Assembly (NCBI GenBank): GCA_030737835.1
Contig: CM060854.1
Coordinates: 12,755,334 to 12,819,333, forward strand
Direction: 5' to 3'
Length of the DNA: 64,000 nt
Origin: Acorus gramineus
Lineage: Eukaryota; Streptophyta; Magnoliopsida; Acorales; Acoraceae
Shown: positions 28,047 to 63,977 of the stretch, in pieces
Numbering within the stretch: the first letter of the stretch is position 1
Layout: the number at the start of each line of letters is the position of its first letter
Notes under the pieces: generated by a model
Database searches by the model: none
What the model was told of the DNA's origin: nothing
Seen by the model: the letters and a program-made list of their open reading frames with translations, nothing else
Position numbers and translations under genes: made by a program

Positions 28047-28584
28047 TGTCACGCCCCGGGCGTCCCCGAGACGCGGCAAGTGTATATAAAATATCAGAAT
28101 CTACACAGGAGGTCAATAATATCATACACAAGCTACTAGAATGACATACAGACAACAAAGCAGGGCTGACATGATATATACACCAAATGCGGATAACTAA
28201 AGACTGAATCTGTAATCAAAACACACTACAGACTCCATACATAATCACATGTCCTGTGAGAGCCAATATACATACAAAGATGTCCAAATACAACACAAAC
28301 GCGTGCCCAAGCACGGAAAATAATACATACTGGTACAAGGGATGCTGATAGTCTCAGAAACTCGTGGGACGTGGCGCTACTCCGCTACTGATGAAGTCCC
28401 TCGGGGAGCTCCTCCTCTGGATCTGACTCAGATGACACTGAAGAGAAAAGATTATGCGAGGGGTGAGCCACACGCTCAGTGAACGGCACAACCCATGCAT
28501 CACATACAATATTGACCACAACCAGCTATCCTTATTATCCACAATTCATATTACTTAATCCACAAACGATAGCACAACTCAAAG

Positions 28585-28935
28585 CCGTGGGTTGCTCAAT
28601 CGCCAACCCACTACACCCTCACCCTCACCCTTCAATGGGTGACAAAGGATATTGGGACTGGCTACACATAACCAGCGGGTCGCTTCCGCCAACCCGCCAC
28701 ACCCTCACCCTCACCCTTCAATGGGTGACATAGGATATTGGGACTAACTGCACCAAAAACCAACGGGTCGCTTCCGCCAACCCGCTACACCCTCACCCTC
28801 ACCCTTCAATGGGTGACATAGGATTTTGGGACTTACAAGCATCCAATCACAACTCCAGTGGGTCGTTCATCGCCAACCCACTACACCCTCACCCTCACCC
28901 TTCAATGGGTGACATAGGATTTTGGGACTGACTAG
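28585..28935 (-). repeat. GGGTGAGGGTGA minisatellite in giant LTR copy a
   Basis: Four tandem units of about 85-100 bp. Each contains, on the minus strand, CCCAATATCCTATGTCACC, a GGGTGAGGGTGAGGGTG core and GGGTTGGCGATGAGCGACCC-like stem sequence. Similar arrays lie in the other copies. Confidence 0.85.
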
Positions 28936-29819
28936 GCTGTTGGTCACCCTTGGTCCACCGATAGTCTCTCCTCCACTCCGTAGGCCGCCTGGTCTACTCC
29001 CACATTCAGCACAGTCCGTCCTAAATCAGGAGGTGCCTACTGATGGGAGCCCTCTGTCAGGAAGGCCTGTCTAACGCTGGGGTAGTCTCTACCGGATCCA
29101 ACGAAGGGAACAGAACAGCCTACCCATCGCATATGATCCATTTGGATCCGCAGACGGCACATTATAACAACACTAATGTTCTGAATTCCTCAGAACCCAC
29201 CAGGGCGCATAACTACGATGCGGGGAACATGCATAAGGTTATAACAGGGTAGAATATCGTTGGGGAAAGAAACTCGGGAGGGCAGCGTGAGTTCCCGTTA
29301 TAGGACACCCCGACAACCAAACAAGGAACACGGTGTACCCTAACCCGGGTCTCACCGCTGTCCTCGCAAGGCCCCTCCCCTATAATATTCACTATAACAT
29401 GCATTGTAAACAAATACTAGCATTTAATCAAATAAATAAACTAGTAGGGCACATGCATCGGCCGGGCTTCCTAACATGGAACCAGGGGACATGCTGCATG
29501 GCTCATACACATATCCTAAGGGTGCAAGTCCCTAACATGCAAAGTCTAGGGTAACATGCATTCTACAATTTAATCATGCTCGCATGATATACATATCATT
29601 GCAGGTTAATATTTATCCATGACGCCCCAGGAGAGGTCGGTATACGCCCAAATGCGTATGACCCCTCTCTACTGGGTTGGATTGTCCCACTCACCGGTAT
29701 CTGGGTCGTCGCGCGACCGTCCGTCTAGATCTGCAAGACAGACATTCAATATAGTGAGAACAATACATAAAATACCCAAAAATACATCTAAAATACCCAA
29801 CACTCGGATAAACGTACAT

Positions 29820-30850
29820 ACGGCCCGTACGCACGTGTATCCGAGCATCCCGAGCGCACAGCCGAGCCTCGGCCCGCGCGCCAAGGCGCACTGCAGAGCC
29901 CAGCCCGCATACCCAGACACCACCGGCGCACTGTCGCACGCCGGCCCGCGCGCCCCGACGCACCGCCGCACGCACGCGCACACTCGCGCGCGCCCGCGCG
30001 CACCGTGCGTCCAGCCCAGCGCGCCCCCGCGCGCACTGCACGCACGCCCCAGCACGCGCACGCATTGGCCCCCAGCACCGCGCGCACTGGCCCCCAGCAC
30101 CGCGCCCAGGCGCATGCCCAGGCGCCCTGCCCAGCACCCAGGCGAAGTGCCCAGGTGCCCTACCGCGCGCGCGCCCGCGCGCACCCGCGCAGACCCCCGC
30201 TGGCACCCCCGCGCGCGCCAGCACCCGCGCGCACCCGTGCACCCACTTCGCGCGCACCCGCGCACCCGTGCGCACGCACCCGCGCACGACTGCACGCCCG
30301 ACTGCGCCCGCCAGCGCCCAGCACCCGGCACCCGCGACCCGCGCCCAGCGCTCAGCGCCCAGCACCCGGGACCCTCACCCAGCGTCCACGCGCACGCCCG
30401 CGCAACACGCGCCCAGCGCGCCTGGCAGCACGCGCTCAGCGCGCCTGCCAGCCTGCCCGCGCTGCTGCCCGCGTTGCCTGCCTGCGCGCGTCGCCGAGTG
30501 GCCCGAGCACCGCTCGCCTGCACGCCCGGGGCACTGCCCGCCTGATGCCCGAGCGCCCCTGCCCTGCTCGCCTGCGCGCCCAGCCAGCTCGCCCGGCCTG
30601 CCAGCGCGCACAGCCCAGCAGCCTGCTCCGCACGCCTCCCCCTGCACCCCCCGAGCGCACGCCCGCGTGCGCGCCCGCGCGCACGCGCTCGCGCGCCCAG
30701 CAAACTGGTGCCCTGCTCCCAGCCTACCCAGCTAGCCCTACCAGCCTAGCACCCGACTAGCCCTGCACGCCCAGCACCAGGCACGCCCAGCGCCAGCCCG
30801 AGCGCACGCCCGCGCGCACGCACGCGCGCGCCCTGCCAGCGGCCCTGCCT
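29820..30850. other. Hypervariable GC-rich core of giant LTR copy a
   Basis: About 1 kb of CpG-dense sequence dominated by GCGCGC, CACGCG and CCCGCGC runs. Long open frames on both strands (up to 344 codons) exist only because stop codons are AT-rich; none resembles a protein. Confidence 0.8.
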
Positions 30851-31647
30851 GCTGCGCCTGCGGCTGCTGCGCCTGCTGCTGCTGCCCTGCCATCCTGCCC
30901 GAGCCCGAGCTCCTCTACCACCCACCTCCGACCACCACCACAGCCTCCGACCGCCTCCCACAGCCCTCTGACGGCCATCCACCGCCGCCAACCGCCTCCC
31001 AACCACAAAACCACCCCCCTAGCATTCATCTATGCAAGAAAAAGAGGGAAAGGGGGCTTACCAAGGGGAGGAGGGGAAGTCCGGTGGCTCTCCGCGCGCC
31101 GAAAACTTTCTCAAAGGCTCTCATACGCCCCGATCTACCTCCACCGCCGAGATGGCTCAAATCAGGGACGAAGAGAGGGCGGATGGACGGGCAAAACTCG
31201 CCGGAATTGGGATTTGAAAACACCGGAATTGGGACCCGATCTACACTTCCCGTGCTTTAGGTTTTAAGCTTTGAGGGCTCTAGGGGGCTTGAAAGTGAGA
31301 AAAAGAGAGAGGGGAGAGAGAAAATGCGTTTGGGGAAGACGATGAACAGTAACTCGGGATTTTAGATCCCACTTATTTATAGTGCGCGACTTAAAAACCC
31401 GGATACGTTCCGGAACTACGAAATTTTTACAAACGATGCCAGAATTCGATTAAATTTTCATGAGTGGCTTAAAATGGCACCAGGACACCAAATATGCAGT
31501 TAGATTTTCAATCGGAGTCCTCTAGCTCAGACGATAGCTAACAGTCTGAAATTATGCGGTTCCGATCGAAAAACCCTAAAAAATTTTAACACTGCCAAAA
31601 ATGCTCCAACGGTTACCAGCAGGCTAAAAAGTGACACATATATAACA

Positions 31648-32165: not shown

Positions 32166-32817
32166 TGTTATGCCTGTGTCATTTGGAGCGCTCTGATTGA
32201 AAATTTGGCTACATAAATTTTTTCTAAGTTATGTATTCCCGATTTGGTATTTGAATTTGATTTTGCTAAAATCCAAGATGAAGTAGTTTAAATATGATTT
32301 TATTATGAGATGTCCAGTTTTGAGTTAGCTTTCGTACAAAAGTGGAATTAGATCAACTGGATTCATGTAGTAAAAGTTATGGGTATTTTTTCAAGTATAC
32401 CCCGGGGATGAGAATTCTGGCAACAGCTCTGTTCTATGTTTAGCTCTAATTTTGGAATAGCTGGAGAGATTATTTGATCTTGGCATAAACATGAAAGTTG
32501 TAGATAATCGTCTTGGCTTTCCAACGGACTTTGAATTGTGCAATTCGGAGCTATATTGAAGAAGTTATGGCTGTTCTAGTGAAGCATGCGTAGAATTTCT
32601 AAGTCAGGGATGAAATGGTCATTTTCATCCCTCTCTAGATATTTATTTGGGCAAAATATCTTCTCTCCCTCTCTCTCCCACATCCCACGTCCATTTTTCT
32701 TGTCTCTCTTTCTCTCTTTCAAAGCCCCCCAAGTGTTTGTGTTTATTCCCCAAAGAGAAGAGAAAGGAGAAGGTGAAGGAAGAAGAGAAGGGTTTGTTCA
32801 TGTGTTGTTGTTGATCC

Positions 32818-35800
32818 TGTTATATATGTGTCACTTTTAACCTGTTGGTAACCGCTAGAGCGTTCTGGCAGTTTTCGGTTTTTACCGGTTTTTCGATCGG
32901 AACCGCTTATTTTTGGACTGTTAGCTATTGTCCGAGTTAGAGGACTCCGATTGAAAATCTAACTGCATATTTGGTGTCCTGGTGCCATTTCTGACCTCCC
33001 ACGAAAATTTCATCGAATTCTGGCATCGTTTGCAAAAATTTCGCAGTTCCGGGGCGTATCCGGGTTTTTAAGTGACTTGTTAATAAAAGGAAATCAAATA
33101 AAACAAAAAGGCACTATTCATCGTCTCTCCCGACGTGATCCCTCTCTCCTCTCTCTCGTTTTTCACCCTTTCAAGCCCCCTAGACCCCTCGAAATCGAAA
33201 ACCCAAAGCACGGGAAGTGTAGATCGGGTCCCGATCTACACACCGGTGTCTTCAAATCCGAGTTCCGACGACTCTAGCCACTCCGTCCCCCTCTCTTTGT
33301 CCTCTGTTTTGGCCCGGTTCGAAGGCCGTGGTAGATCGGGGCGTAAGAGAGCCTTTGGGAAAGGTTTCGGCGCGCGGAGAGCGTCCGGACTTCGCCTCCT
33401 CCCCTCGGTAAGGTCCTTTCCTTCACTTTTCTTGCATAGATGTATGCTAGGAGTGGGGTTTTTGTGATTGGGGGTGGTCGGCGGCTGTGGGGGTCGTCGG
33501 AGGGCGGTCGGGGGTGGTTGGAAGGTGGTGGTGGCGCTCGGGCAGCGGCAGATCGTCCGGGCCGAGCAGCAGCAGCAGCAGCAGCCCCGGGCGGCGCCAG
33601 GTCGGGTGCGCGCGGGCGCGCGGCGTGCGCGCGAGGGCGCGCGGGCCTGGTGCAGGGGCTGGTCGGCCTGGGCGGGCAGGGGCTGGTCTGGGCGCGCGCG
33701 GAGGGCGCTGGCGCGGCAGGCTGAGCGCGGGGCGCGCGCGGAGGGCGCTGGCGCGGCAGGCTGAGCGCGAGGCGCTGGCGGAGGTGCGTGGCGGTGCGCG
33801 GAGGCTGCGGCGAGGCCGTGGCGGTGCGCGGAGGGCGCGGTGAGGCCGCGGTGGTGCGCGCGAAGCGCGGCGAGGTGCGGCAAGGCGTGCGAGGTGCGTG
33901 CGAGGTGCGCGCGAGGTGCGGCAAGGCGTGCGAGGTGCGCGCGAGGTGCGGCAAGGTGTGCGAGGTGCGTGCGAGGTGTGCGCGAGGTGCGGCAAGGTGG
34001 CGGAGGTGCGCGCGGGGTGCGCGTGAGGCGGGGCACTGCGTGCGGGGGCGCGCGGGGTGCTCGCGGACCGGCGCAAGGCGTGCGGGGCCCGCGGCGGCGC
34101 GTCCGGGCAGTCGGGTGGCCGTGCGGGCGGTGGCCGGCCGTGCGGGTGGTTGCCGGGGGCCGTGCGGGTGGTTGCCGAGGCCGCGGGTAGTTGTTGGGGA
34201 GGTGTTGGATGCTTGTTGTGGGTTTTGGGGTGGTTATGTATGTATTTAATGATAATTGTGGATTAATACTAACCAGTGAATGTCTGTCTTGCAGATCTAG
34301 ACGGACGGTCGCGCGTCGACCCAGATACTGGTGAGTGGGACAATCCAACCCAGTAGAGAGGTGTTATACGCACTTGGGCGTATACCGACCTCTCCTGGGG
34401 CGACATGGATTATATTAACCTGTAATAACATGTATTGCATGTGAGCATGATGAAAATGTAGAATGCATGCTACCCTAGACTCTGTATGTTAGGGACTTAC
34501 ACCCTTAGGATACGTGTAAGAGCCATGCATCATGCCTCCTGTTTTCATGATAGGAAGCCTTGGCCTATGCATGCGTCCTACTAGTTTATTTATTAAATTA
34601 AATTAAATACTAGTGTGTTAGATTCATGCCCATGATAATATGGTTTGTATAATTAATAGCATGCTTAGAGAATGTTATAGGGGAGGGGCCTAGCGAGGAC
34701 AGCGGTGAGACCCGTGTTAGGGTACTCCGTGTTCCTTGCATGGTTGGCGGGTTGTCCCACATCGGGACCCCAGGTTACCCTCCCCAGGTCTCTTTTCCTC
34801 ATATTATTCTGTATGTTCCCCGCATCTTGGATATGCGCCCTGGAGGGAATTCTGATGAATTCATGGCACTATAGAGAATATTATAACCTCGGGGTTATAA
34901 TATATGTTTCCCCGCATCTTGGTTATGCGCGCTGGTGGAATTCTGAGGAATTCGAGACATTAGAGTGATAGACTTGTGCTGTCAGCGGATCCGAGTGGAT
35001 CATATGCGATGGATAGGCTGTTCTGTTGCCCTGCGTTGGATCCTTTAGAGACTACCTCGGCGTTAGACAGGTTGTCCCGTGCAGGGCTCCCACTAGTAGG
35101 CGCCTCCTGGTTTGATGAAGGACTGTGCTGAACATGGGAGTGGCCAAACAACCGCGGAGTGAGGAGAGACTATCGGTGGACCAAGGGCGACCAACAGCCT
35201 AGTCAGTCCCAAAATCCTATGTCACCTTTGGAAAGGTGAGGGTGAGGGTGTAGTGGGTTGTCGATGAGCGACCCACTGGTTTTGTTTATGAATGTTTATC
35301 AGTCCCAAAATCCTATGTCACCTTTGGAAAGGTGAGGGTGAGGGTGTAGTGGGTCGGCGATAAGCGACCCGCTGGTCTTGTTTATTGATGATAGTTAGTC
35401 CCAAAATCCTGAGTCCCCTGTTGAGGGGTAAGGGTGAGGGTATGATCTGGATTGGATAAATGGTTATGTTGTTCCTGCCCCTTTGAGGCGGGATGAATGG
35501 CTGGATTAATATGTTGTGGTCAATATTGTCTGTGATGCATGGGTTGTGCCATTCACTGAGCGTGTGGCTCACCCCTCGCATATGTTTTTTCCCCAGTTGC
35601 CACTGAGCTGGAGCTGGAGCCGGAGCAGCAGTTGGAGCTTTCCGAGGGATTTCTTCAGTAGCGGAGCAGCGCTACGTCCGCGAGTACCAGAGGCTATCAG
35701 CATCCCTTTCCTTGGCTGTATGTATTGGATTTCCGTGCTGAGCACGTGTTGTATATATTCAGTTGTTATTTGTATATATTGGCTCTCACAGGACAGATGA

Positions 35801-36004
35801 TTGTGTATCGAGTCTGTAGTATGTTTTATTTACAGACTCAGTCTTTTGCTTCCGCATTAGGTGTATATATCATGTCAGCTTCTTGTCATTGTGTGTCATT
35901 CTGTTTATTGTGTATGATATATATTGTTGACCTCCTGTGTAGGTTTCTGATATGATATGTATACATTTGCCGCGTCCCGGGGTTGGCCGCCCTGGGGCGT
36001 GACA
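32818..36004 (+). mobile_element. Solo giant LTR, copy c, nested in the 5' LTR of copy b (3187 bp)
   Basis: TSD GATCC at 32813-32817 and 36005-36009; the uninterrupted homologue is at 42120-42135 in the 3' LTR. Starts TGTTATATATGTGTCAC like copy a, so it is the same subfamily. Donor CCTCG/GTAAGG at 33417/33418, GC-rich core about 33480-34190, acceptor ending 34294, mini-exon 34295-34330, acceptor ending 35596, and a frame ending LELSEGFLQ and stop at 35659-35661. It also has the GGGTGA minisatellite at 35200-35445. Confidence 0.88.
35200..35445 (+). repeat. GGGTGAGGGTGA minisatellite in copy c
   Basis: Three units of about 90-110 bp starting AGTCCCAAAATCCTATGTCA, with GTGAGGGTGAGGGTGTAG and paired GGGTCGGCGATAAGCGACCC arms that could form a hairpin. 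Confidence 0.85.
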
Positions 36005-38757
36005 GATCCTCCTCTCTCAAGCTCCCTTTTCATGACCCTTCCCCCCCTGATTTTCAGCCAAGAAGGAGGCTGAGGAGAGGCTGAAGAGGTGGTGGTGGTT
36101 GAGGTGGCCGTGGGCGCGTCGAGAGCCCCGCATCTCCCCCTTTCCCTTTCCCTTTCCCTCTTTTGGTAAGTCCTCTTCCCCTTCTTTTTGATTTTTAGGG
36201 TTGTTGGGATGGTTAGGGTGTTCATGCATGCTATGCATATGAGTTAGAGTGTGTGTGAGGGGTTGGGGAGGGTTAAAAAGGGGTAAAGGAAGGCTGGGCG
36301 CGCGCAGGCGCGCACGCAGAAGGGCGCTTGCGCGAGCGGGGGTGCGCGAGGCGTGCGCGCGAGTGCACGCGGGCGCGCGCGAGCGTGCGCGCGCGCGGGG
36401 CAGTGCGCCTGGGCATGCGCCTGGGCGCGGGGCTGGGGGCCAGTGCGCGCGCGCGTGTGCGTGCGCGTGCTGGGGCATGTGCGGGGTTCTGCACGGGCGC
36501 GCAGTGCGCGAGAGGGCGCGCGGCAGTGCGCCATGGGTGCTGGAGCGCGTGCGTGCGTGCGCATGCGGGAGGCCATGCGTGTGGCTGCCCGAGGGTTCAG
36601 GTAGGTGTCGGGGCACTCGGACTCGCGTGCGTATGTGCGTGCTCGCATGCGTGCGAGTCCGTATGCATGCTTGTCCGAGTATTTGGTATTTCTAGTAAAT
36701 TTCATGTATATTTGTGTAGTTTACTCACCATAATTGATGCCCCTACCTTGCAGATCTCGTCAGATGGGATGCGCGAGGTCCCGGGTTGTAAGGTGAGTGG
36801 TTCGATTCCAATCCCCCCCCTCTCTTGGGGTGCGCTCGATGCGCGTAGACGCGCGTCGCGCATCGAAGGGCCCCCCTAGCTATAATATGTAGAAACTATG
36901 TTAATGCATGTTTTACTATGATGTAACCATGCCATATTAGACATTGTATGCTAGGGATATACATCCATGTATCATGTATAGAGGCCCATACATGCCTAGA
37001 CACCATGTCCCATGCTTGAAAAGCCTTGATCTATGCATGTTTCCCATTTAACTTAATTTATTTAAATCAAAATGAGATTATATTGGTATAAGCATGCCGT
37101 AGAGAATATTATAACCTTGTTGTTATAATATATGTTTTCCCGCATCTTAGTTATGCGCCCTGGAGGAATTCTTGAGAATTCATGACATTAGTAGTGTTAG
37201 AAATCGTTGTCGACGGATCCAAGAGGATCGTATCTGTGTGAGTAGGCTGTTTTCTCCCCTTCGTTGGATCCGAGTAGGGACTCCCCGGCGTTGGAAAGCT
37301 GTCCTGATAGAGGGCTCCCATCTGTAGGTACCTCCGATGCGTTCAGAGGGTGCTGATCGTGGGAGTATACCAGGTAGAGGCTACGCGAAGGAGAGGCTAC
37401 TGGTGGACCAAGGGTGAAGAGCAGCCTAGTCTGTCCCAAAAGGCCCATGTCACCCCTAAAGGGTGAGGGTGAGGGTGAGGTGGGTCGGCGATGTTACGAC
37501 CCACTAGCTTGTACAGTTACTCCCGTTTAGGGACTTTAATTATTTTAAGGTTAATATGAGTTGTGTTGCATAGATTGTTGTTATGCCTGTGTTTTGATAT
37601 CTCGATATGTGATTATCGAGAGTAGTTGTTTTTCATTGGGTTCGCTTTGCGAACATGGGATCGTTCTCCCCTTCGTTGAATCCGATGTAGGAACTTCTCG
37701 GGATTACAGCTGTCCTGACAGAGGGCTCCCATCTGTAGGTACTACCGATGCATTCGGGAACGTACTGACCATGGGAGTATACCAGGTAGAGGCTACCCGG
37801 GGAAAGGGCTACCGGTGGACCAAGGGTGTAGAGCGGTGAGTTGAAGAGGCCGGGTTGTAGCTGTCCTAACAGAGGGCTTCCATCTGTAGGTACCACCAAT
37901 GCATTCGGGAGCGTACTAGTCGTGGGAGTATACCAAGTAGAGGCTACCCGGGAGAGGGTTAACGAATGATATTGGTGAGGGTGAGGATGAGGCGAAGACA
38001 CATCGCCGCGTGACCCATTCGTTGTTCGACCGTTCCCATAGTTGTTGGGTCCGGTCTCGTAATCGATGTTCAAGGACATCGTTGGGCAGTTATCTAGATG
38101 TAGATGATCCAGTAGCGTTGTGTAGACCAGTAATTCCGGGTCTCTTCGACCGACGGTATGGTCTCTCCCCAAAAGTCCCAAGAGTCTCCCTCCGGGAGTG
38201 AGGGTGAGAGTGAGGTTGGTCGCGCTGTCGCGTGACCCTGTTATCCATGGGTTTCCACCCATGTTTTCCTTGAAAGGAAAGTGCTTATGTATTGAACTGT
38301 TGTATGGTGATTGGTTTCCAGCCACTCACTGAGCTTGTAGCTCACCCCTCGCATACTGTTTCTTTTCAGGGGCAGTGTTGGGCGTGGAGTTGGAGCTTTC
38401 CTGTGGCGTGGTCTTATGGGCGTGGAGCGTTCTTTCGGCGGGTGGCGAGTGCGAGGCTGTCAGCAGTCCTAGAGTCATTGTATGTATTGTAAATCGTGCA
38501 TGTGGCACAGGTTGTATTTTCTTTGGTCTAGACTTGGCTCTCACAGGACAGTGATTGTGTATTCGAGTCTGTAATAATGTTTTTGGTTTACAGACATTGT
38601 TTATATATTATGCTTTCGCTTTTCAGTCAGTTATCATTATCCTTGCTTTGCCACCTCGTGTGTTGTTGTTGGAGTCTTTATTGACCTCAGGTATTGATAG
38701 CTGATATTTTATTATTGCCACGTCTCGGGGACGGCCGCCCTGGGGCGTGACAAAAGT

Positions 38758-38769
38758 TGGTATCAGAGC
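38758..38769 (+). other. Primer-binding site of giant-LTR element copy b
   Basis: TGGTATCAGAGC, complementary to the 3' end of plant initiator-Met tRNA, 5 bp after the 5' LTR end. Confidence 0.9.
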
Positions 38770-38876
38770 CTGGTCCTGTCAGAGCCTAAGTCTAGTCGTA
38801 TAGATGATGAGTCGTAGGATTGCATCCGAGTACTCTTGTGTTAGAGGTATATCTTAGGTTGCTGACATGCCTCCTC

Positions 38877-41400
38877 GCATCCGTTGACGTGGACGTGACC
38901 CCCTAGACCCACCCTTAAGTTGTCGACTGGGTCGACTAGTTAGGGTCAGTTGTTGGATCCCTTGTTGTGGGATTAAGGCTTGGGTAGGAGATTCCAGCCC
39001 AGTAGTATGATAGTGATGAATTGGTCACAATTTCTAAGGTATGGATTGCGTCTCGATAATGGAGCTTCTTTCTCGTGCATCGGTATCGCTAGTAACCATT
39101 GAGTTCACGTGCAGCGCCAGTTTCAAGTTTTGAGGGTGTGGCGTATTGCTCATTAAGGGGTGATGTCTTCTTCCAGTCTTCCTACTTAGGATAAGGGGCC
39201 TTGCAGGGTCAGCGTTGAGACCCGGGCTAGGGTACTCCGTGTTCCTTGTTTGGTTGTCGGGATATCCTATATCGGGACCTCATGGTGCCCTGCCAAGGTT
39301 CTTTTCCCAGTCAAGGAATACCATTGAAGCATCTATAAGATGATGGATTTTTCCTCTCACTTGGAAGGTGCTGTAGCGAGTGGTGATGCGTACGATCGGG
39401 ATTGGGTGCATCCTATTGCAGCTTGGTGGGCGATTGCTTGTGGACTGGGTTCCATAGTGGCATCTGGAGTCGCTTCGATATATCATTGTGCGTTGTAGCT
39501 GCCCGGTTGAGGGTAGAGCCCTGTGAGGTGCTCCCAGATACTATGCTTGTTGGTGCTCCCATATGGCAGAGATAGTGGGCTTGGGAGGCTACCAGGTAGA
39601 GGCCACACTGGGAGAGTGCTACTGGATGATGTCGAGAGCGTGGACTCCCTATGATGAATCTGCCCATGGAGTGCAGGATGCTGGAGTTCCAATGGTTATA
39701 GTTGAGCGACCTATCTCTGGCGGCATGTGAAGCACAATTGTGGATACTGTCGCGTTTTGCCCCACATTGGTCACAAATAAGGAGACGCGATGCTAGCGTT
39801 CGTGATGGGACTCAACCGCCCTATCGGATAGATGACGTCGCATAGGCATTGTCGAGGTCCGACGACCCCTTATTGCGTGTCTTGTGGATTAAGTGCGGTT
39901 GAGCGGCTTACCAAGCGTGTAAGTGTCATCATGAGCGTCAGCCATGCTCGAGGAGCAGAATTTGGACTTAATTGTTCGAGGTGTTGTTTTGATCTCCCCG
40001 TGGAGGTTGAAGATCAATTACCTTTGTCGCGAATCGATGATCTGTTTGACCAGCTCTGGGAGCGAGTGTCTGCTGTTAGATCGATCTTCGCACAAGGGTA
40101 CCACAAGTCGGAGATCCGGGAGTTAGACATCCCGTAGATGGCCTTTCGTGACCGTTCAGGCACTATGAGTTTTAAGTACTGCTGTCGGGGTTGACGAATG
40201 CGCCGGATGCCTTCGTGGATCTCAAAAGTTTTATTGGGTTCCGTGGACTACTTTGGGGTAGTCTTCATTGAGATTGCTGTGGTGTGATGAAAAGGTGATG
40301 TGGGTGACCTTGTTTCCCCAGGTTGGCATGCCCTCAGGCAAAGTTCGAGAATCATCATTGAATGGAAAGCGTCAGTCCATGGAGATTCCTCAGTGGACGT
40401 GGGAGTGGGTTATCAGGGATTGTTGAGGACTCGCTAATGTCACGTTCGGGTCACGACACCGTCTAGGTGATCATTGACCGACTGACTAAGTCCGCGCTTC
40501 CCTCCCTATCTGACTGATTGAGTCTCTGGACGCCTTGACGTGGGTTTTCACCTTCGCGATTGTTCGTCTTCATGGCACTCCGGTCGGCGCTATTTTCGGT
40601 TGAGACGCGAGGGTTACTTTGAGGTTGTGGCGCAGCCTTGGCAGGCTTTGGCGCGAGCCTCCATTTAAGTATAGCGTTTCATCGCCAATGGACAGCCAGA
40701 CAAAGAGGATGATTCAAACCTTGGAGGACATGATAAGTTCTTGCGTGCTCGATGATGAGGGAAGTTGGGTGAGGCACCACCCATTTGTTGGGGTATGCCT
40801 GCAAGACGACTGCCATTCGAGCATCCAGATGGATCTGTGAAAGGCACTCTACAGGCACAGTTTATACCTCCCTTGTGTTGGGACGGTTGAGGAGCGCCAG
40901 TTGGAGGGGCCATAAGTTAGTTGTTTGACCTTGCGGTGGCCAGGTTGGTTCGTGTGTGCATCTGCACCTCCCAGAACCGACAGAAGGGCTACGCAGGTCA
41001 TCGTCGCCAAGAGCTTACCTTTGGGTTTGGCGACCATGTTTCCTGAAGGTGTCCCAGTTTAAGGGCACCCTCTGTTTCGACGTTCAGGGCAAGCTGAGTT
41101 GGCTCTTTAATGGGACCGTTTCTCGTCATTGAGTGGATTGGGGAGGTGGCTTGTCATGTAGCCTTTCCCCCACAGCTGGCTCATGCCCACGACGTCATCC
41201 TTGTCTCATGGCCGAGGCGTTATGTCCAAGATCCTGCTCATGTCACTCCGTTCGACCGTCTCATTCTCGAGCTGGATTTATCGTTCGTGGAGCAGTGGAT
41301 CGAGGTCAGAGACCAGCATGAGAAGAGGCTCCACGCTAAGACCGTTCCTTTGATTATAGTGTGTTGGTAGCGCTAGTCCGGTGCAAAGACCACTTGGGAG
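38877..41400 (+). pseudogene. Degenerate Tekay-like gag/pol pieces inside copy b
   Basis: A gag-like start MPPRIR (38877) stops at once. About 39195-39310 is an LTR-derived block. About 39380-39680 is homologous to the segment after the RT thumb/RNase H start in the copy at 56110. RT palm pieces are at 40020-40260 (RIDDLFDQL, YHKSEIRELDIP, SGLTNAPDAFVDL). Integrase core pieces are at 40370-40910 (VIDRLTKSA-like, RLHGTPV, IQTLEDMISSCV, YNN-like decay, ERQLEGP). The integrase C-terminus is at 41110-41400 (GPFLVIEWIGEVA, LAHAHDVILVSWPRRYV, EKRLHAKTVPLI). Many stops and frameshifts; no protease or intact catalytic domain. Confidence 0.75.
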
Positions 41401-41470
41401 CAAAAGGTCTATGCATTATACTTTCGATCTTCCCTTTGGGTTTCCTTAAATTTCGAGGACTAAATTTCCT

Positions 41471-41483
41471 AAGGGGGGAAGAA
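41471..41483 (+). other. Polypurine tract of copy b
   Basis: AAGGGGGGAAGAA directly before the 3' LTR TG. Confidence 0.85.
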
Positions 41484-47720: not shown

Positions 47721-47991
47721 TAGGCTGTTGGTCACCCTTGGTCCACCGATAGTCTCTCCTCCACTCCGTAGGCCGCTTGGCCTTCACCCACACTTCAGCA
47801 CAGTCCGTCACAAATATCGGGAGGCGCCTACTGATGGGAGCCCTCGGAAGGGATGACCTTTCTAACGCTGGGGCAGTCTCTACACGGATCCAACGAAGGG
47901 AAACAGAACAGCCTATCCATACGCATATGATCCATTCGGATCCGCCGACCACACATCTCTACAACTCTAATGCCTTGAATTCTTCAGAATT

Positions 47992-48757
47992 CCAACAGGG
48001 CGCATAACCAGGATGCACGGAAACATGCGTTATAATAATAAAGAGGTTGGAATATTAACGGGGAAAGAATCCTTGGGAGGGCAGCGTGAGGTCCCGATAT
48101 AGGACATCCCGACAACCAAACAAGGAACACGGAGTACCCTAGCCCGGGTCTCACCGCTGTCCTCGCGAGGCCCCTCCCCTATAATATTCACTAAGACAGG
48201 CTAATAATCACATGCTCGCATTTTATTTAAATAAATTAAACTAAATGGGAACATGCATCGGTCGGGGCTTTCCTAGCATGGAAAACATGATAACAGGGTG
48301 CGTGGTTCTTATACGGGTCCTAAGGGTATAAGTCCCTAGCATACAAATCTAGGGTGGCATGCATACTACAGATTCCAACAGGGCGCATAACCAGGATGCA
48401 AGGAAACATGCGTTATAATAATAAAGAGGTTGGAATATTAACGGGGAAAGAATCCTTGGGAGGGCAGCGTGAGGTCCCGATATAGGACATCCCGACAACC
48501 AAACAAGGAACACGGAGTACCCTAGCCCGGGTCTCACCGCTGTCCTCGCGAGGCCCCTCCCCTATAATATTCACTAAGACAGGCTAATAATCACATGCTC
48601 GCATTTTATTTAAATAAATTAAACTAAATGGGAACATGCATCGGTCGGGGCTTTCCTAGCATGGAAACATGATAACAGGGTGCATGGTTCTTATACGGGT
48701 CCTAAGGGTATAAGTCCCTAGCATACAAATCTAGGGTGGCATGCATACTACAGATTA
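47992..48757. repeat. 383-bp direct tandem duplication within copy d
   Basis: 47992-48374 is repeated at 48375-48757 with only a few differences (e.g. ATGCACGG vs ATGCAAGG, one A indel). Other giant LTRs have this segment once, so it is a recent local duplication. Confidence 0.85.
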
Positions 48758-50999: not shown

Positions 51000-51011
51000 G
51001 CTCTGATACCA
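51000..51011 (-). other. Primer-binding site of the gypsy element
   Basis: Reverse complement reads TGGTATCAGAGC (initiator-Met tRNA), 2 bp from the inner LTR end at 51014. Confidence 0.9.
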
Positions 51012-51013
51012 AT

Positions 51014-54564: not shown

Positions 54565-54941
54565 TGTTATGCCTGTGTCATTTGGAGCCATTTCGGTTAA
54601 GCCTTGGTCACATCTGGGTCATTCAGGGCCTTTTAATTTTTCGATCGGAGTCGCTAAAATTTTGGCTTTTAGCCACCTGCGGGAGTTGGAGTACTCTGAT
54701 TGAAAATCTAACTGCATATTATGGGTCCTGGTACCGTTTAGTACTACCCATAAAAATTTCATCGAATTTCGGTAACGTTTTGAAAAATATGCAGTTCCGA
54801 ACCGTATCCGGGTTTTGAGAGTTCCTGGTTGGTCGAATAGTGTGAGATATTTTGGGGATGTGGTGACCCTTGGTAACCTTACCCCCACCTTGCTTGGGGA
54901 TGAAGAAACCATTGGTTATTTGATTTGTGAGTGGGTGAGCC

Positions 54942-55743
54942 TAGGCCTGTCAACGGGTCGGGTCCGGGTCGGGTCGGGGTGGACCCAGACCTGACCCGTG
55001 ACAGGACCCGACGGGTCCGGGGAAATGTGAACCCGGACCCGGACCCGTCGGACCCGGGTCGGGTCCGGGTCCGACCCGACCCGGTGGTTGGGTAAAAAAA
55101 AAAAAAAAAGAGAAGAGCTCATGTATTTGTTTGCCTTATCATTCTATTTGAAATTTTTTGTAATAAAACATTATTGTTAATGAGACTATGTTTGAATATA
55201 ATTTTATATTCAAAAAAAGTAAATGAATTATTAAACAACATCCAAAACAATAATCACTAACATAAAAAACATATTAACTTAAATAATAAACATAACTAAC
55301 ATAAACAACATTCAAAACAATATTAACCTAAACAACATTCAAAACAATAAACACTAACATATTAACCTAAATAATATACATAAATCATGCAACAAACTAA
55401 TTAATCATACAAATTCAAAAGCTAATAAGTTAATTGTCCAAAAGAAACGGATTTATAGGCTTGTTATGATTATGATTTATGAACTTGTAGATACAAAAAT
55501 AAGTTAAGTAAGAAATAAAATTATGTATCAACTAATACTAATGGTCTTATAATATATGAGCATATTTTAATAAAACAATCGGGTCTCGGGTCCAACGGGT
55601 CGGGGCTGGGTGGACCCGGACCCAACCCGTTTGTTTGTTCCAGTCCGCCGGGTCGGGTCCAAATCGGGTCGGGTATATTACACGTGTAATTGGGTCCGGA
55701 TCGGGTCGGGTCCGGGTCTGGACCCGACCCGTTGACAGGCCTA
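54942..55743. mobile_element. Non-autonomous hAT element (802 bp)
   Basis: TIR TAGGCCTGTCAACGGGTC at the left with its exact inverse at the right, and 8-bp TSD GGTGAGCC at 54934-54941 and 55744-55751, diagnostic for hAT. Subterminal regions are GGGTCCGGGTCGGGTC repeats in opposite orientation at the two ends; the middle is AT-rich and non-coding. Confidence 0.85.
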
Positions 55744-55885
55744 GGTGAGCCTAACCCTAACTTCACCCCCTTATGGTCACCCCTAAACACTATTTGGGCA
55801 GACCCGGACCCGTTGACAGGCCTAGGTGAGCCTAACCCTAACTTCACCACCCCCTTACGGTCACCCCTAGACACTATTTGGGCAT
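55730..55885. repeat. Tandem duplication of the hAT right end plus flank
   Basis: The last bases of the hAT element and about 60 bp of flank (GACCCGTTGACAGGCCTAGG ... CACTATTTGGGCA) are repeated directly once with small changes, so the second hAT end is not a separate insertion. Confidence 0.8.
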
Positions 55886-58407
55886 GAAAAAGATATTTTT
55901 GCCCTTTCTCTCTCTCCCCCTCTCTCCAATTTCGTGGAACTCTCTCAAGCTCCCTCTCTTGGTCTTTTTTTTCCCTCTTTGTGTGTGGAGGAGGAGGAAG
56001 AAGCAAATGAAGGAGAAGGTGAAGAAGGAAGCACAAAGAAGGTGAGTTTTGTGTGTGTGTTGTTGTTGTTGTGGTTTCTCCTCTCTCAAGCTCCCTCTCA
56101 TGTCTTCCCTGTTGTGCCTGTGTCAGTCGGAGCGCTCTGATTGAAAATTTGGTTACATAATTTTTTTTTCCCTAAGTTATGTATTCCTGATTTGGGGTTT
56201 GGATTTGATTTTGTTAAAATCCAAGATGAAGAGGTTTAAATATGAGTTTACTATGAGATGTCCAGTTTTGAGTTAGCTTTCGTACAGAAGTGGAATTAGA
56301 TCAACTGGATTCTTGTAGTAAAAGTTATGGGTATTTTTCCAAGTATACCCTGGGGATAAAAATTCTGGCAGCAGCCCTGTTCTATGTTTAGATCTAATTT
56401 CGGATTAGCTAGAGAGATTATCTGATCTTGCCATGAACATGAAAGTTGTAGATAATCTTCTTAGCTTTCCATCGGTCTTGGAATCAAGCAATTCAGAGCT
56501 GTATCAAGGAAGTTATGGCTGTTCCAGTGAAGCTTGCGCAGAATTTCTAGTCGGAGGGCGACTTAGTAAATTTTCCTTAGATATTTGTGATAAATATCTC
56601 TCTCTCTCTCTCTCCCTCCCAATGTTGTCGACAACCTCTGCTGGGCTCTCTCTTCCTCTCATTTCAAGCCCCCCATGTGTTTGATTGAATGACACAAAGA
56701 GAAGGTGAAGGTGGAGGAGGAAGTGGTGGTGGATCTTTGTGTTGTGTGGTTGATCTTCCCTTCTCTCAAGCTCCCTATACATGATCTTCCCCCCCTGATT
56801 TTCAGCTGAAGAGGAGGCTGAGGAGGAGGCTGAGGGGTGGTGGTAGTGGTGGTGGCGGTTGAGGTGGTCGCGGGTGCGTCGAGGGCCCCCGAACCTCCCC
56901 CTTTTGTTCCCCCTCCAAGGTGAGCTCCTCCCCTCCTTTTCTTGATTTTTTTGGCTTAAGGGGTTGGTTGGGAGGTCATGCATGCTTGGTAGTTGGGTTA
57001 GGGTGTGTGTGAGGGGTTGGGGAGGATGAAAATGTGGTTAGAATGGGCTGGGCGCGTGCTGGGCGTCGTCTGCGTTCGTGCGCGCGCAGGCGCGCGCAAG
57101 GGAGCGCTGGTGGGCGCGCAGACGCGCGCGGGCGCGTGCGCGCGGGTGCAGGCGCGAGCGGGGGTGCAAGCGGGAGTACGCGCGGGTGTGCGCGGGCGTG
57201 CGCGCACGCGGGCAGGGCACCTGGGCACTGCGCCTGGGTGCGGGGCAGGGCGCCTGGGCATGCGCCTGGGCGCGGAGCTGGGGACCAGTGCGTGCGTGTG
57301 CTGGGGCGTGCGCGCAGTGCGCGCGGGGGCGCGCTGGGCTAGATGCGCGGTGCGCGCGGGCGTGCGCGTGCGTGCGGCAGTGCGTCGGGGCGCGCGGGCA
57401 GGCGCGCGGCAGTGCGCCGATGGTGCCGGAGTGCGTGCGTGCGTGCGCATTCGTGCGTGCGCGTGCGGGTGGCCATGCGAGCGGCTGCCCGGGGGTGCGG
57501 GAGTGAGTCGGGGTGCTCGGGCTAGCGTGCGTACGGGCCGTATGTACGTTTGCCCGAGTGTTGTGTATTTTTAGTGTATTTTGGGGTATTTGCGTATTTT
57601 ACTCACCAAGTTGATTACCCTGTCTTGCAGATCTTGACGGACGGTCGCGCGACGACCCGGTTATTGGTGAGTGGGACAACCCAACCCAGTTGGGAGGCGC
57701 TATATGCACTTGGGCGTATACCGTCCTCCCCTGGGGCACCATAGTTAATATTAACTGATTAATATGTAATTTGTGCAAGCATGATTAGTGTGTAGAATGC
57801 ATGCCACCCTAGACTTGTATGTTAGGGACTTGCACCCATAGGATATGTGTAAGAGCCGTGCATCCTGTCACCCTGTTTATATGATAGGAAGCCTCGACCT
57901 ATGCATGTGTCCTACTAGTTTGATTTATTAATTAAATGCAAACTTATGATATCTTAGTATGCCTTGGGGAATATTAAGGGGGCCTTGCGAGGTCAACATT
58001 GAGACCCGGGCTAGGGTACTCCGTGTTCTTTGTTTGGTTGGTGGGATGTCCTATATCGGGACCTCAGGTTGCCCTCCCAAGGTTTCTTTTCCTCATTATT
58101 ATCTTATGTATTCCCCGCATCTTGGTTATGCGCGCTGGAGGAATTCTGAAGAATTCAAGACATTAGAGTTGTAGAGATGTGTTGTCAGCGGATCCGAGTG
58201 GATCATATGCGATGGATAGACTGTTCTGTTCCCTTCGTTGGATCCGTGTAGAGACTGCCCCGGCGTTAGAAAGGCTGTCCCGTGCAGGGGCTCCCATCAG
58301 TAGGCACCTCCTGATTTGGTAGACGGACTGTGCTGAATGTGGGAGTGGCCAAACGGCCTACGGAGTGGGGAGAGACTATCAGTGGACCAAGGGTGACCAA
58401 CAGCCTA

Positions 58408-58672
58408 GTCAGTCCCAAGAGCCTATGTCATCTATTGAGGGGTGAGGGTAAGGGTATGGTGGGCCGGCGATGTGGCGACCCACAGGATTGTGTAAGGATG
58501 ATTATCAGCCTTGTAAGTCCCAATATCCTTTGTCACCTATTGAGGGGTGAGGGTGTAGTGGGTTGGCGATAGCGACCCGCTGGATTTGTGTAGTTAGTCC
58601 CAATATCCTATGTCACCTATTGAGGGGTGAGGGTGAGGGTGTAGTGGGTTGGCGATAGCGACCCACTGGATT
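58408..58672 (+). repeat. GGGTGAGGGTGA minisatellite in copy f
   Basis: Three units starting AGTCCCAATATCCTATGTCA, with GGGTGAGGGTGAGGGTG and GGGTTGGCGATAGCGACCC stems. Confidence 0.85.
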
Positions 58673-59320
58673 GTATAGCTGTTGCCATTTGGTGGCTTTT
58701 AATAATGAGATTGTGGATTATTAAGATCTGGTGGTTAATATAATTGTGATGCATGGGTTGTGCTGTTCACTGAGCGTGTGGCTCACCCCTCGCATAATAT
58801 TATTTCTCCAGAGTCATCTGAGTCGGAACTGAAGGAAGAGCTCCCCGAGGGACTTCATCAGTAGCGGAGTAGCGCCACGTCCCGCGAGTATCAGAGGCTA
58901 TCAGCATCCCTTGTGATTGTATGTATTATATTCCGTGCTTGGGCACGCGTTTGTATTGTATTTGGATGTCATTGTATATATTGGCTCTCACAGGGCAAGT
59001 TGATTATGTATCGAGTCTGTAATATGTTTGGATTACAGATTCAGTCTTTTAGCTTCCGCATTTGGTGTATATATCATGTCAGCCCTGCTTTGTAGTCTGT
59101 GTTGTCATTTTAGCTGTTGTGTGAGTATGTTATTGAACTCCTGTTTAGACTGATATCATATATACACTTGCCGCGTGCCGGGGACGCCCGGGGCGTGACA
59201 AAAAGTTGGTATCAGAGCCTGGTCCTGTCAGAGCCAATGGTCTTCTTTTCGTAGAGATGAGTCCTAGGATTTCTATATGAGTATTCTGATCCTAGTGTCT
59301 GGTTTTCTTGGGTTGCTGAT

Positions 59321-59748
59321 ATGCCTCCTCGTGGAGGACGGCGCGGACATGGTCCCTCTCGACCTTTGGAGGTTTCTGGACCTATCAGAGGCGAGGATGC
59401 TACTGGAGAGTCCACGGTTGTGAGGCCAGGATTGGCGCAGGAGCCTCCCGCATGGAAACGTGCATTCGCTCGATAGCGGATTTGGTGGAGACTCAGACCA
59501 AGGCACTGGAGGCCCAGACTAGAATGTTGGCAGAGCAGGCACGGGAGACTCAGGAGCTGCGGGCGGCCCGTGATGCAGTTCCACAGGTCCCCTTGATGGC
59601 AGATCCGCCAGTGGTACCCGAAGTACCCCCAGTCCCCGTGGTGTTCCCAGCGGTGAAAGTTCAGGATCCCCTGGTGAGGGAGGTGGAGCTAGAGGCTGTA
59701 GCGCGAGTATTGAGAATGGTTGTTCGAGTTGAGGAGGCCGGGTTGTAG
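59321..59748 (+). pseudogene. Gag fragment of copy f
   Basis: ATG 59321 opens MPPRGGRRGHGPSRP and stops near 59475; a shifted frame from 59452 continues with a coiled segment (LVETQTKALEAQTRMLAEQA) and a Pro/Val-rich tail. Similar to Tekay-type gag N-termini that begin MPPR. A frameshift prevents one protein. Confidence 0.65.
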
Positions 59749-60450
59749 CTGTCCTGGCAGAAGGCTCCCATCCGTTGGTACCACCGATGCAGTCGGAGGG
59801 GTACTGATAGTGGGAGTATGCCCGGTACAGGCTACCCGGATGGGGATCAATGAATGATGTCGCGAGCGTGGAATCGTTCTCCCCTTCGTTGGATCCGATG
59901 TAGGGACTCCTCAGCGTTAGAAAGGCCTTCCTGACAGAGGGCTCCCATCAGTAGGCACCTCCTGATTTGGGTTCGGACTGTGCTGAATTGTGGGAGCGGA
60001 CCAGGCGGCCCACGGTGTGGAGGAGAGGCTACCGGTGGACCAGGGGTGTAGAGCAGTCTAAGTCTCTCCCAAAGTCCCAATATGTCTCCTTTCGGGAGTG
60101 AGGGTGTGGATGAGGCGAAGACGCGTCGCCTCGTGACCCAATTGTTGTTCGACCATTCCCAAGGATGTTGGGTCCGGTCTTGTGATGGATGTTGAAGGAT
60201 ATCGATGGGTGATTATCTAGATGTAGATGATCCAGTGGGGTTAATAGTGTTCTTTAAGGGTGATGTCTTCTTCCAGACTTCCTACTCTGGATGAGGGGCC
60301 TTGCAGGGTCAGCGTTGAGACCCGGGCTAGGGTACTCCGTGTTCCTTGTTTGGTTGTTGGGGTATCCTATATCGGGACCTCATGGTGCCCTGCCAAGGTT
60401 TCTTTTCCCAGTCAAGGACTACCTTAGAAGCATCAAATTGATGGTGGATT

Positions 60451-60800
60451 AAGTGCGAGTTTTGGTTGGAGAGTATGGCCTTTCTGGGCCACGTGATTTT
60501 CTGGCAAGGGCATATCTGTGGACCCGGATAAGATGCTCGCCGTGTTAAATTGGCGTCGACCGTCGAACCCCGCAGAGATTTGGAGCTTCCTGGGCTTGGC
60601 GGGTTATTACAGGAGGCTTGTCGAGGGTTTCTCGAAGATAGCTGTACCTCTTAACCGCCTCGCTCGGAAGGATGTCCGGTTCGAATGGTCCCCGTCTTGC
60701 GAGGAGAGCTTCCTGGAGTTTAAGCGAAGGCTCACCTCAGCGCCAGTTCACCCCTTCCGTCTGGGAGGGGTGGGTTCGCAGTTTGCTCCGATGCATCGCG
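60451..60800 (+). pseudogene. RT thumb/RNase H start fragment in copy f
   Basis: [16 protein letters not shown], then [32 protein letters not shown] and [20 protein letters not shown]. This is the RT connection to RNase H of Tekay/Del gypsy elements. It lies upstream of the RT palm piece, the reverse of normal order. Confidence 0.8.
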
Positions 60801-61439
60801 GTTGGGTGTGGTGATGCGTTCGATCGGGATTGGGTGCGTCCTATTGCAGCTCAGTGGGCGATCGCTAGTGGACAGGGTTCCACAGTGGCATCTGGAGTCG
60901 CTTCGATAAATCATTGTGTGTTGTAGCTGCCCGGTTGAGGCCAGAGCCCTGTGAGGTGCTCCCAGATCCTATGCTTGTGGTTCGCCCATATGGCAGAGAT
61001 AGCGGGCTTGGGAGGCTACCAGGTAGAGGCCACACCGGGAGGGTGCTGCTAAATGATGACGAGAGCGTGGACTCCCCGTGATGAATCTGCCCATGGAGTG
61101 CAGGATGCCGGAGTTCCAATGGTTGTGATGAGCGGCCTATCTCTGGCGGCATGTAAGCACAGTTGTGGATACTGTCGCGTTTGCCCCACATTGGCCGCGA
61201 ATAAGGAGACGCGATGCTAGCGTTCGTGATGGGACTCAACCGCCTATCAGATAGATGACGTCGCATAGGCATTGTCGAGGTTCGACGACCCCTTAATGCG
61301 TGTCTTGTGGATTGAATGCGGTTGAGCGGCTTACCTAGTGTGTAAGTGTTATCATGAGCGCCAGCCATGCTCGAGGAGCAGAATCCGAACTTGATTGTTC
61401 ATGGTGTTGTTTTGATCTCCCCGTGGAGGTAGAAGATCA

Positions 61440-61700
61440 ATTACCTTTGCCGCGAATCGATGATCTATTTGACCAGCTCTGAGAACGAGTGTCTGCTGTT
61501 AGATCGATCTTCGCACAAGGGTACCACAAGCTGGAGATCCGAGAGTTGGACATCCCGTAGATGGCCTTTCGTGACCGTTCGGGCACTACGAGTTTTAAGT
61601 ACTGCCGTCGGGGTTGACGAATGTGCCGGATGCCTTCGTGGATCTCAAAAGTTTTATTGGGTTTCCGAGGACTACTTTGGTAGTCTTTGTTGAGTTGCTG
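61440..61700 (+). pseudogene. RT palm fragment in copy f
   Basis: LPRIDDLFDQL, YHKLEIRELDIP and GLTNVPDAFVDLKSF are recognisable, with stops and a deletion between them. Colinear with 40020-40260 of copy b. Catalytic FxDD box absent. Confidence 0.75.
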
Positions 61701-61779
61701 TGGTGTGATGATAAGATGATGTGGGTGACCTTGTTTCCCCAGGTTGGCATGCCCTCAGGCAAAGTTCGAGATCATCATC

Positions 61780-62109
61780 GCGTGAAAAGCGTCAGTCCAT
61801 CGAGATTCCTCAGTGGACGTGAGAGTGGGTTGTCAGGGATTGTTGCAGACTCGTTAATGTCACGTTCGGGTCACGACGCCGTCTGGGTGATCATTGACCG
61901 ACTGACTAAGTCCGCGATTCCCTCCCTATCAGACTGATTGAGTCTCTGGACGCCTTGACGTGGGTTTTCACCTTCGCGATTGTTCGTCTTCATGGCACTC
62001 CAGTCGGCGCTATTTTCGGTTGAGACGCGAGGGTTACTTTGAGGTTGTGGTGCGAGCCTCCATTTAAGTATAGCGTTTCATCGCCGATGGACAGCCAGTC
62101 AATGAGGAT
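61780..62109 (+). pseudogene. Integrase core fragment in copy f
   Basis: Reads degenerate QWTxEWVVRDC, SRSGHDAVWVIIDRLTKSA and, after a frameshift, RLHGTPVGAIFG. Breaks off at 62109 where LTR-like sequence begins. Confidence 0.75.
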
Positions 62110-63977
62110 GAAATTTGGGGTCATTATGATATCTGTGGTGTAAGTTAGAACCAGTTTTGCATGGCCTGTCCAGATTCGCGTAGGAATTGACCTGCTTCTG
62201 GAAATAATTTGTTTCGGGCTTGTAGAGGCAAAATTCATGGATTATGATCTCAGAATATCAGAGAATGTGCATGATTTATTTCATAATTTTTGGAAGTGTA
62301 TTGGGTGCTGTGGAGACCAATTAGTAGGGCTGGTTGCATCAGGTTTGGCAGTTTTGCTTGGTTGAGTGTCAAGGAGTTGTTTGCATGTGTCTTGTGTGAT
62401 AATATGGAATTATCAAGGGTTAGGGTATTCATGAAGTAAGCTTATTTGTGTGATAGGAGGTTCCATATTTTAATTGTGGATCATTGGTTGTATTTTGCAG
62501 ATCTCGTAGACCGGACGCGCGACGATCCGGGTATCTGTGAGTGGTTTGGTCCAATCCCCCCCCCCTCTCGAGATGCGCTCGACGCGCGTAGTCGTGCGTC
62601 GCGCATCGATGGGGCATCTTAGCTATACTACTTGTGTAGATAAGTAGTATGGCCATGCTTAAGCTATAAAATGTTAGATATCTTGCATGCTAGGCTTATA
62701 TACATGTATTGTATCCATGTATGAATGATTGTGTTGCATGCGCCCCTCTAGTATGGGCATGTATTTTTTTGTAATGTGTATGGATGTATAGAATATGGCA
62801 TGCCTTAGGTAGTATTGTAATACTACTCTCACCATATTAATTGGAATATCCAGTATGATTAAGTCTGGGTTAATAACGGGCACCTGCCTAATATTCCCTT
62901 GCGATAAGACTCGAGGGAGTGGTGTAGTTGTTGCGCCCATGCTAATGGTGCGAAGCTATGACCAACTTCATGAGATGATGATCTCTCTCGCCCTCTCCCT
63001 CTGAACGAACTGAGTAAGTAGATGCGATTTCCTACTCGACTCAGGTTCGTTTGGAATATTGGCATGCACCTGTTAGTGCGCGAGATCGCGCTTGACCCTT
63101 TCTTTTAAGTTGGTGATATCCAATGCATGCTTAAGTTATGCCTTGTGTGCTTATGATTAATGGCCACGTATGCAGGATTAAGTGGGCCATACCTTGTATG
63201 CATGTTGTATGATTGCTGTTTATGATGTAAATCAATGATTAGGGAGTATCCCTATGATTAATTGATATGTGATCGTGCATATGGTTCATGCACGTAGCTA
63301 AGATTTATCTCTCCTATAAAATATATGCGCATGTTAAAACTAACCAGGCCTATCTGAATTAGGCGTGGGTATGACCCGTTGTCGGTTTGTACCTTATTAG
63401 TTAGAGCGCTAGCGATGTAATCGCCCCCATGCATCCGAGCAATGCACTCGTTTTGGAATTCAGGAGAATTCGTTATCTTATCGTTTAGTTAAATCGGTAG
63501 TTGTGGCATTAAGCTAGGCCTACCCGTGCTAGGCGTGTATATGAACCGCCTGTTGGGTTATGTGCCTTGGGATTATTTCTGCGTGAGAGCAGAGGCAACC
63601 CCCCCCCCTTTGTGTCCGAGTGACGCAACCGTGTGGGAGTACAATAGTGTTCGATATCATCGATATGTGATTATTGAGAGTAGTTGTTTTTCCATTGGGT
63701 TCGCTTTGCGAACATGGAATGTTTACTCCCAATGTCGTCCGAGTTGAAGAGGCCCAGGTTGTAGCTGTCCTGACAGAGGGCTCCCATCCGTAGGTACCAC
63801 CGATGCGTTCAGAAGCGTACTGATCATGGGAGTGTACCAGGTAGAGGCTACCCGGGAGAGGGTTAACGAATGACATTGCGAGCGTGGAATCGTTCTCCCC
63901 TTCGTTGGATCCGATGTAGGAACTTCTCGGCATTGGAAAAGTTGTCCTGACAGAGGGCTCCCATCCGTAGGTACCAC
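62110..63977 (+). mobile_element. Partial giant-LTR-like segment, copy g (runs off window)
   Basis: Joins the integrase fragment abruptly. It lacks the GC-rich core and has AT-rich sequence to 62490. It then shows the family module: acceptor TTTTGCAG ending 62500, a 36-nt mini-exon 62501-62536 and donor GTGAGTGG. After that come the same GCGCTCGACGCGCGTAG-type block, a short C-run (about 62559-62571) and GGTACCACCGATGCGTTC modules near the end. No TSD can be checked. Confidence 0.55.

Follow-up and report, generated by a model that had tools for sequence, protein, structure and literature searches.

The window analysed here is 64,000 nt of Acorus gramineus DNA (positions 12,755,334-12,819,333 of contig CM060854.1, in an assembly of 398.6 Mb and 137 contigs), and from 28 kb to its end it is a nest of elements with long terminal repeats (LTRs). 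We consider it likely that these elements represent a non-autonomous, Ty3/gypsy-derived Acorus group resembling large retrotransposon derivatives (LARDs), mobilised by a helper and reassorting LTR modules with relatives. Positions 28047-64000 comprise three solo LTRs (A, N and C), one complete copy (B), one 5'LTR with a partial internal region (D) and one broken LTR of another type (Table 1). Boundaries, target-site duplications (TSDs), primer-binding sites (PBSs) and polypurine tracts (PPTs) were established by direct sequence reading combined with all-against-all BLAST within the window and motif counts against shuffles. At up to three mismatches the LTR start motif matched 11 times, against 0.58 expected from shuffles; seven of these matches are LTR starts, two fall at corresponding sites within the two LTRs of B and two lie outside the nest. 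The end motif at up to two mismatches was not above chance (16 matches against 11.4 expected), and its six exact copies all stand at LTR ends. The PBS of B, TGGTATCAGAGC, is one that we take to correspond to initiator-Met tRNA.

Copies bearing these starts, ends, PBS and PPT had been described in an earlier note made from the sequence alone, and they proved real: A, N and C are solo LTRs flanked by perfect 5-bp TSDs, B is complete, and D consists of a 5'LTR with partial internal. The piece at 63.6-64.0 kb belongs not to D but to the X-type LTR that begins at 54565 and resumes at 62108. Also as described, the complete copy has long LTRs around a short decayed internal, each LTR (3400 and 3490 bp) exceeding the 2731-bp internal in length.

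Table 1. Features of the long-LTR nest, in window coordinates; LTR end types are described in the text
Feature	Position	Strand	Remarks
A, solo LTR	28047..31647	-	3601 bp, TSD GGATC; A-type 5' end, type-2 3' end
B, complete copy	32166..44973	+	TSD GGCTA; split by N
B 5'LTR, part 1	32166..32817	+	BLAST, direct reading
N, nested solo LTR	32818..36004	+	3187 bp, TSD GATCC; inside 5'LTR of B; A-type 5' end, type-2 3' end
B 5'LTR, part 2	36005..38752	+	both parts together 3400 bp
B internal	38753..41483	+	2731 bp, coding-dead; pol remnants
B PBS TGGTATCAGAGC	38758..38769	+	initiator-Met type
B polypurine tract	41469..41483	+	directly before 3'LTR
B 3'LTR	41484..44973	+	3490 bp; B-type 5' end, type-1 3' end
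C, solo LTR	46948..50620	-	3673 bp, TSD TTGGC; hybrid: B-type 5' end, type-2 3' end
X-type LTR, 5' part	54565..56109	+	pieces 54565-54943 + 55744-56109; hosts D
D 5'LTR	56110..59200	+	3091 bp; hybrid: B-type 5' end, type-2 3' end
D PBS	59207..59218	+	after D LTR
D internal, partial, rearranged	59201..62107 (end approximate)	+	pol pieces out of order
X-type LTR, resumed	62108..64000	+	extends beyond window end to about +659 bp

LTR lines, solo LTRs and the shared internal region

Under the 80% rule, copies of one LTR family share at least 80% identity. Among the six window LTRs, whole-LTR identity exceeded 80% in only 2 of 15 pairs (the two LTRs of B, 96%; C and D, 86%), A and N being 75% identical and the remaining 12 pairs 48-70%, and trees of the two LTR ends conflict; the single family seen by the earlier note therefore does not hold. 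What the window copies have in common are LTR ends, PBS and PPT context, and sequence blocks, and by these alignments they represent a number of related LTR lines between which modules have been exchanged. The exact 16-base LTR start occurs 2633 times genome-wide, and its reversed control does not occur. GC-rich minisatellites and tandem repeats of 80-96 bp lie in LTR interiors (28601-34193 and others), and such minisatellites and tandem repeats are the likely source of the range in LTR length. Solo LTR C contains a recent tandem duplication of ~383 bp (47960-48756, 97-100% identical), and the X-type LTR an insert of ~0.8 kb (54944-55743) whose bordering LTR stretch of ~10 bp stands on both sides, like a target duplication. 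A direct repeat (31735-32135 and 51014-51414, 88% identical) flanks the nest and contains a 56-bp tandem unit.

Twenty loci of 10 kb were read at the first-listed LTR starts on contig C1. Solo LTRs with a TSD matching at 5/5 positions were present at eight, seven of them 3.28-3.96 kb long and one (L028) spanning 6.0 kb; L010 and L023, where a TSD matches only across 7-9 kb, were excluded from this count. An LTR end with a PBS downstream was found at three loci (L011, L016 and, after a longer span, L015) and a PPT ahead of an LTR start at two (L012, L017), while five were assigned to none of these classes (L009, L018, L020, L021, L026). One further start pair on C1 is bounded by TSD GATAA. In a sample of 100 LTR starts (contig C1, exact 16-mer), 23 are preceded by a PPT; 23 complete copies with one 5'LTR each leave ~54 solo, broken or other LTRs, or ~2.3 to 1. 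Among the 100 sites, at least nine pairs have an identical 28-base flank (L021/L041, L062/L100, L063/L085, L075/L101, L077/L107, L080/L109, L081/L110, L082/L111, L086/L088), which points to duplicated DNA blocks (28.05-29.0 Mb of C1, and also L021/L041). The ratio becomes ~2 to 1 once each such pair is counted once, PPT sites not being checkable for duplication in this way. In line with the frequent LTR-LTR recombination inferred previously from the three solo LTRs of the window, solo LTRs are common by these counts. Two copies were dated by their LTR divergence, 3.7 and 4.4% (K = 0.037 and 0.044).

Window-type degenerate internals were present at all ten additional PPT-marked sites that were read upstream, all on contig C1, with a PBS-to-LTR spacing of 2.70-2.83 kb at seven, 3.1 kb at one and the PBS out of view at two. 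Ten internals were aligned (the window copy, L011, L012, L089, L091-L095 and L098); those of L015, L090, L096 and L097 were excluded because they are cut, incomplete or rearranged. The aligned internals span 2706-2833 bp, are 88.9-96.1% identical and form a tree with short inner branches. The longest open reading frame (ORF) in each ranges from 90 to 155 amino acids (aa); when the window internal is shuffled 300 times, the longest ORF averages 115 aa and the 95th percentile lies at 162. Differences in the first remnant frame are spread over the codon positions with no protein-like bias (0.092, 0.082, 0.094). No Rfam match reached the gathering score. LARDs are defined by paired LTRs, priming sites, a conserved non-coding internal with a conserved RNA structure, and mobilisation in trans by an autonomous element; here B has two TG...CA LTRs with a TSD, a PBS, a PPT and a non-coding internal, and that internal is kept between copies. 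The earlier designation as non-autonomous and LARD-like thus stands, with the same dead internal at 10/10 PPT sites and no ORF above 155 aa in ten internals. Intact gag-pol between these LTRs, which the earlier note had named as the finding that would tell against it, was seen in none of the copies read, in the window or on contig C1.

L012:1-4142 (from C1:8742931) is a tandem form consisting of an internal end, PPT, an LTR reduced to 889 bp, PBS, a whole internal and a full 3'LTR. At 8 of the 20 loci (L010, L015, L016, L018, L020, L022, L023, L028) a 115-bp module of the B internal (39194-39308) also occurs, often doubled, next to blocks that resemble another LTR type.

LTR modules and the derivation of the internal

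Nineteen LTRs were compared, six from the window and 13 from the loci, seven of the 20 loci being dropped for want of a clean LTR. Because TATA, CCAAT and AATAAA did not recur at consistent positions in a scan of 13 LTRs, the unique 3' (U3) and unique 5' (U5) sides were set by distance from the LTR ends, as the first 400-500 bp and the last 600 bp, respectively. Three types can be told apart by the first 500 bp: B type (B, C, D, L013, L017, L019, L022, L024, L025), X type (L011, L012, L014, L016, L021, L026) and A type (A, N), with 40-56% identity between types apart from L027, which is intermediate. The last 600 bp sort differently: B joins the 13 loci in type 1 (81-98% identity), while A, N, C and D make up type 2 (73-93%), with 58-65% identity between the two. 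Compared with B in 200-bp bins, D begins at 89-90% identity (first 400 bp), drops to 60-83% through the middle and ends at 39-49% (last four bins); compared with A, it is 32-52% identical up to 1000 bp and 75-89% identical beyond.

Topology tests on 18 LTRs by the approximately unbiased (AU) test rejected the type-2 grouping with the 5'-side data (p 9.2e-5), and with the 3'-side data rejected both the B-type grouping (p 1.8e-6) and the grouping of B, C and D (p 9.2e-5); the ten internals likewise rejected monophyly of the B-type carriers (p 0.0086). By U3 type the 100 sampled starts divide into 44 B-like, 43 X-like and 13 other, and the PPT-marked starts into 13 B-like, six X-like and four other, so that one internal carries different U3 types. 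These comparisons establish, at the level of alignments and trees, that the LTRs are mosaics, with 5'-side blocks that differ in ancestry from those of the 3' side, and that at least two 5' (U3-side) types are joined to the same internal. Since the hybrid C is flanked by a perfect TSD, it was already hybrid when inserted.

The internal was compared with a 1505-aa gag-pol protein of Platanthera (P0285), at a threshold of E 1e-10 for the loci. The B internal matches aa 633-740 and 1144-1491 of this reference, and L012, L089 and L091-L098 each show at least one of the two stretches, extending down to aa 1098; at this threshold aa 1-632 and 741-1097 find no match in the same ten loci, and L011, L016, L017 and L090 have no match to the reference. 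The pieces of the D internal come in a different order (aa 770-876, then 644-736, then 1170-1233), and B and D each keep their own layout when two other plant proteins (P0243, P0250) serve as reference. The reverse transcriptase (RT) piece of D is 60-70% identical to plant Ty3/gypsy polyproteins (best 120 of 387 matches), and a match to the SH3_Tf2-1 profile (E 3.5e-6) lies under the curated cut-off. The remnant pol is, by protein similarity, most like Ty3/gypsy polyproteins, and the internal is a deletion derivative of Ty3/gypsy pol; that the same pol stretches are missing from different copies indicates that the deletion came before amplification. From its ends, PBS and PPT the group may, provisionally, belong to the Tekay/Del chromoviruses, a lineage recognised by a chromodomain after integrase and by RT placement in that clade; no chromodomain match was found in the 18 ORF pieces scanned. 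D was considered as a less decayed ancestor and rejected, its aa 770-876 piece lying upstream of the shared aa 644-736 piece, as in a rearranged copy. Other gypsy pieces occur in L020 (aa 780-880) and in the flank of L027 (aa 676-814).

Proposed mobilisation of a dead internal and its alternatives

A coding-dead gag-pol deletion derivative, with an internal of ~2.7 kb and long LTRs, has inserted repeatedly when already dead, and its copies have kept what a helper needs in cis, namely TG...GTGACA ends, 5-bp TSDs, an initiator-Met-type PBS and a PPT. Intact insertion of an ordinary autonomous Ty3/gypsy family, with later loss of its genes, would also leave gypsy pol remnants in the internals, and the copies are not new (K = 0.037 and 0.044). 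We nevertheless strongly disfavour gene loss after insertion and give it very little credence, given that independent copies agree in internal length and in the missing pol stretches and that a within-copy LTR difference of ~4% is too small for separate gene loss in each copy. A single short burst from one dead source, or DNA duplication, would make a lasting helper unnecessary and would be in keeping with the short inner branches of the internals' tree and with the flank-sharing pairs, at least nine among 100 sites, which are DNA duplications. We regard it as improbable: flanks differ at most sites, the eight solo LTRs each have their own TSD, the internals are 4-11% apart, above the LTR-pair divergence of the two dated copies, and more than one U3 type occurs on them.

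The mosaics could have another source in gene conversion or ectopic recombination among genomic copies, with no part for reverse transcription. Many related LTRs adjoin one another in the nest, and the solo LTRs demonstrate that LTRs recombine; yet crossing over between copies should break the TSD, which is perfect around hybrid C, and the two LTRs of B share one hybrid type. This origin seems to us unlikely, though it keeps some weight, and the mosaics are most simply explained by template switching between co-packaged RNAs.

In the helper-dependent group that we favour, an LTR promoter would produce genomic RNA, and an unseen autonomous relative would supply the Gag, RT and integrase that package this RNA, copy it with tRNA-Met priming and integrate it. 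A copy whose two LTRs recombined would then be reduced to a solo LTR, and template switching between co-packaged RNAs of related elements would reassort LTR blocks, by which the dead internal would gain new promoters. Several points weigh against this account. No helper element was found, the copies read all coming from the window or contig C1, and the sampled loci represent one contig and were selected for an exact match to the 16-mer start. Alignment between 5'-side types is barely possible (40-56% identity), which weakens cross-type trees; the intermediate bins between D and B (60-83%) mean that breakpoints are not clean; and conversion between genomic copies offers its own, less likely, route to the mosaics. 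The L011 internal has no pol match at E 1e-10, and the second (integrase) remnant frame shows differences of 0.083, 0.091 and 0.108 at the three codon positions, a slight third-position excess at most. An RT ORF at 45070-45636 (-) with an RVT_1 match (E 1.7e-33) was set aside as a candidate partner; by eye it looks like part of a minus-strand element interrupted by C. The open pieces of this other retroelement lie at 45070-46575 and 50651-51139 (-), apparently split by solo LTR C, the join having been made by eye.

Known systems and implications

In the cited parts of the literature, elements of this kind are already known from rice, wheat and einkorn, and the exchange of LTR modules is the added finding. 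The rice LARDs Spip and Squiq have RIRE3 and RIRE8 as autonomous partners (PMC1940013); they too are large non-autonomous LTR elements, with LTRs resembling those of the gypsy partner, but no partner is known for the Acorus group, which is likened to them by description and not by sequence. Rice Retrosat2 has LTRs above 3.2 kb and ~2.6 solo LTRs per complete copy (PMC3485330), comparable to the long LTRs and solo excess in Acorus (~2 to 1 in the sample), but it carries ORF0 and ORF1 whereas the ten Acorus internals have no long ORF. Degenerate RLC_Angela subfamilies and RLG_Sabrina/RLG_WHAM in wheat were, similarly, amplified as degenerate elements alongside autonomous ones, and LTR transfer by conversion or template switching has been proposed there as a change of partner (PMC9744471); unlike the Acorus case, Angela is Copia, the wheat partners are identified, and Sabrina and WHAM can retain gag. 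Einkorn RLG_Quinta is non-autonomous, has LTR termini, PBS and PPT in common with RLG_Cereba, and includes recombinant lineages ascribed to template switching (PMC11302176), a parallel to the Acorus elements, but it is centromeric and retains its gag ORF intact, an ORF not seen in the Acorus internals. The Acorus genome papers (PMC10282084, PMC10281966) give general repeat contents only in the parts cited, together with a genome size of 399.8 Mb for A. gramineus (PMC10281966). No published description of the Acorus group was found in the literature; repeat libraries were not covered, and an earlier name is possible.

Outside the nest the window holds a host gene for eIF3l (Paf67) at 222-4259 (+), 99% identical to an Acorus calamus protein with the next best match at 85%, a host RopGEF gene with a PRONE domain at 10295-11168 (-), and remains of an L1-type element at 20319-23384 (-) with RVT_1 and zf-RVT, whose best named protein match, at 63%, is from Acorus calamus.

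We advance tentatively, as an idea that is rather less probable than not, that the dead internal persists by repeated capture of U3 from co-packaged relatives, such that at least two unrelated U3 types drive it at high copy and LTR ends and internal evolve separately, as cassettes, in a small genome. In annotations, such families can be split or falsely merged if elements are grouped on LTR identity alone. If helper mobilisation with LTR reassortment is correct, it would bring Acorus, which is sister to all other monocots and has a genome of ~400 Mb, within the range of LARD-type parasitism, and would provide a clear system for asking whether LTR promoter swapping keeps dead elements alive.

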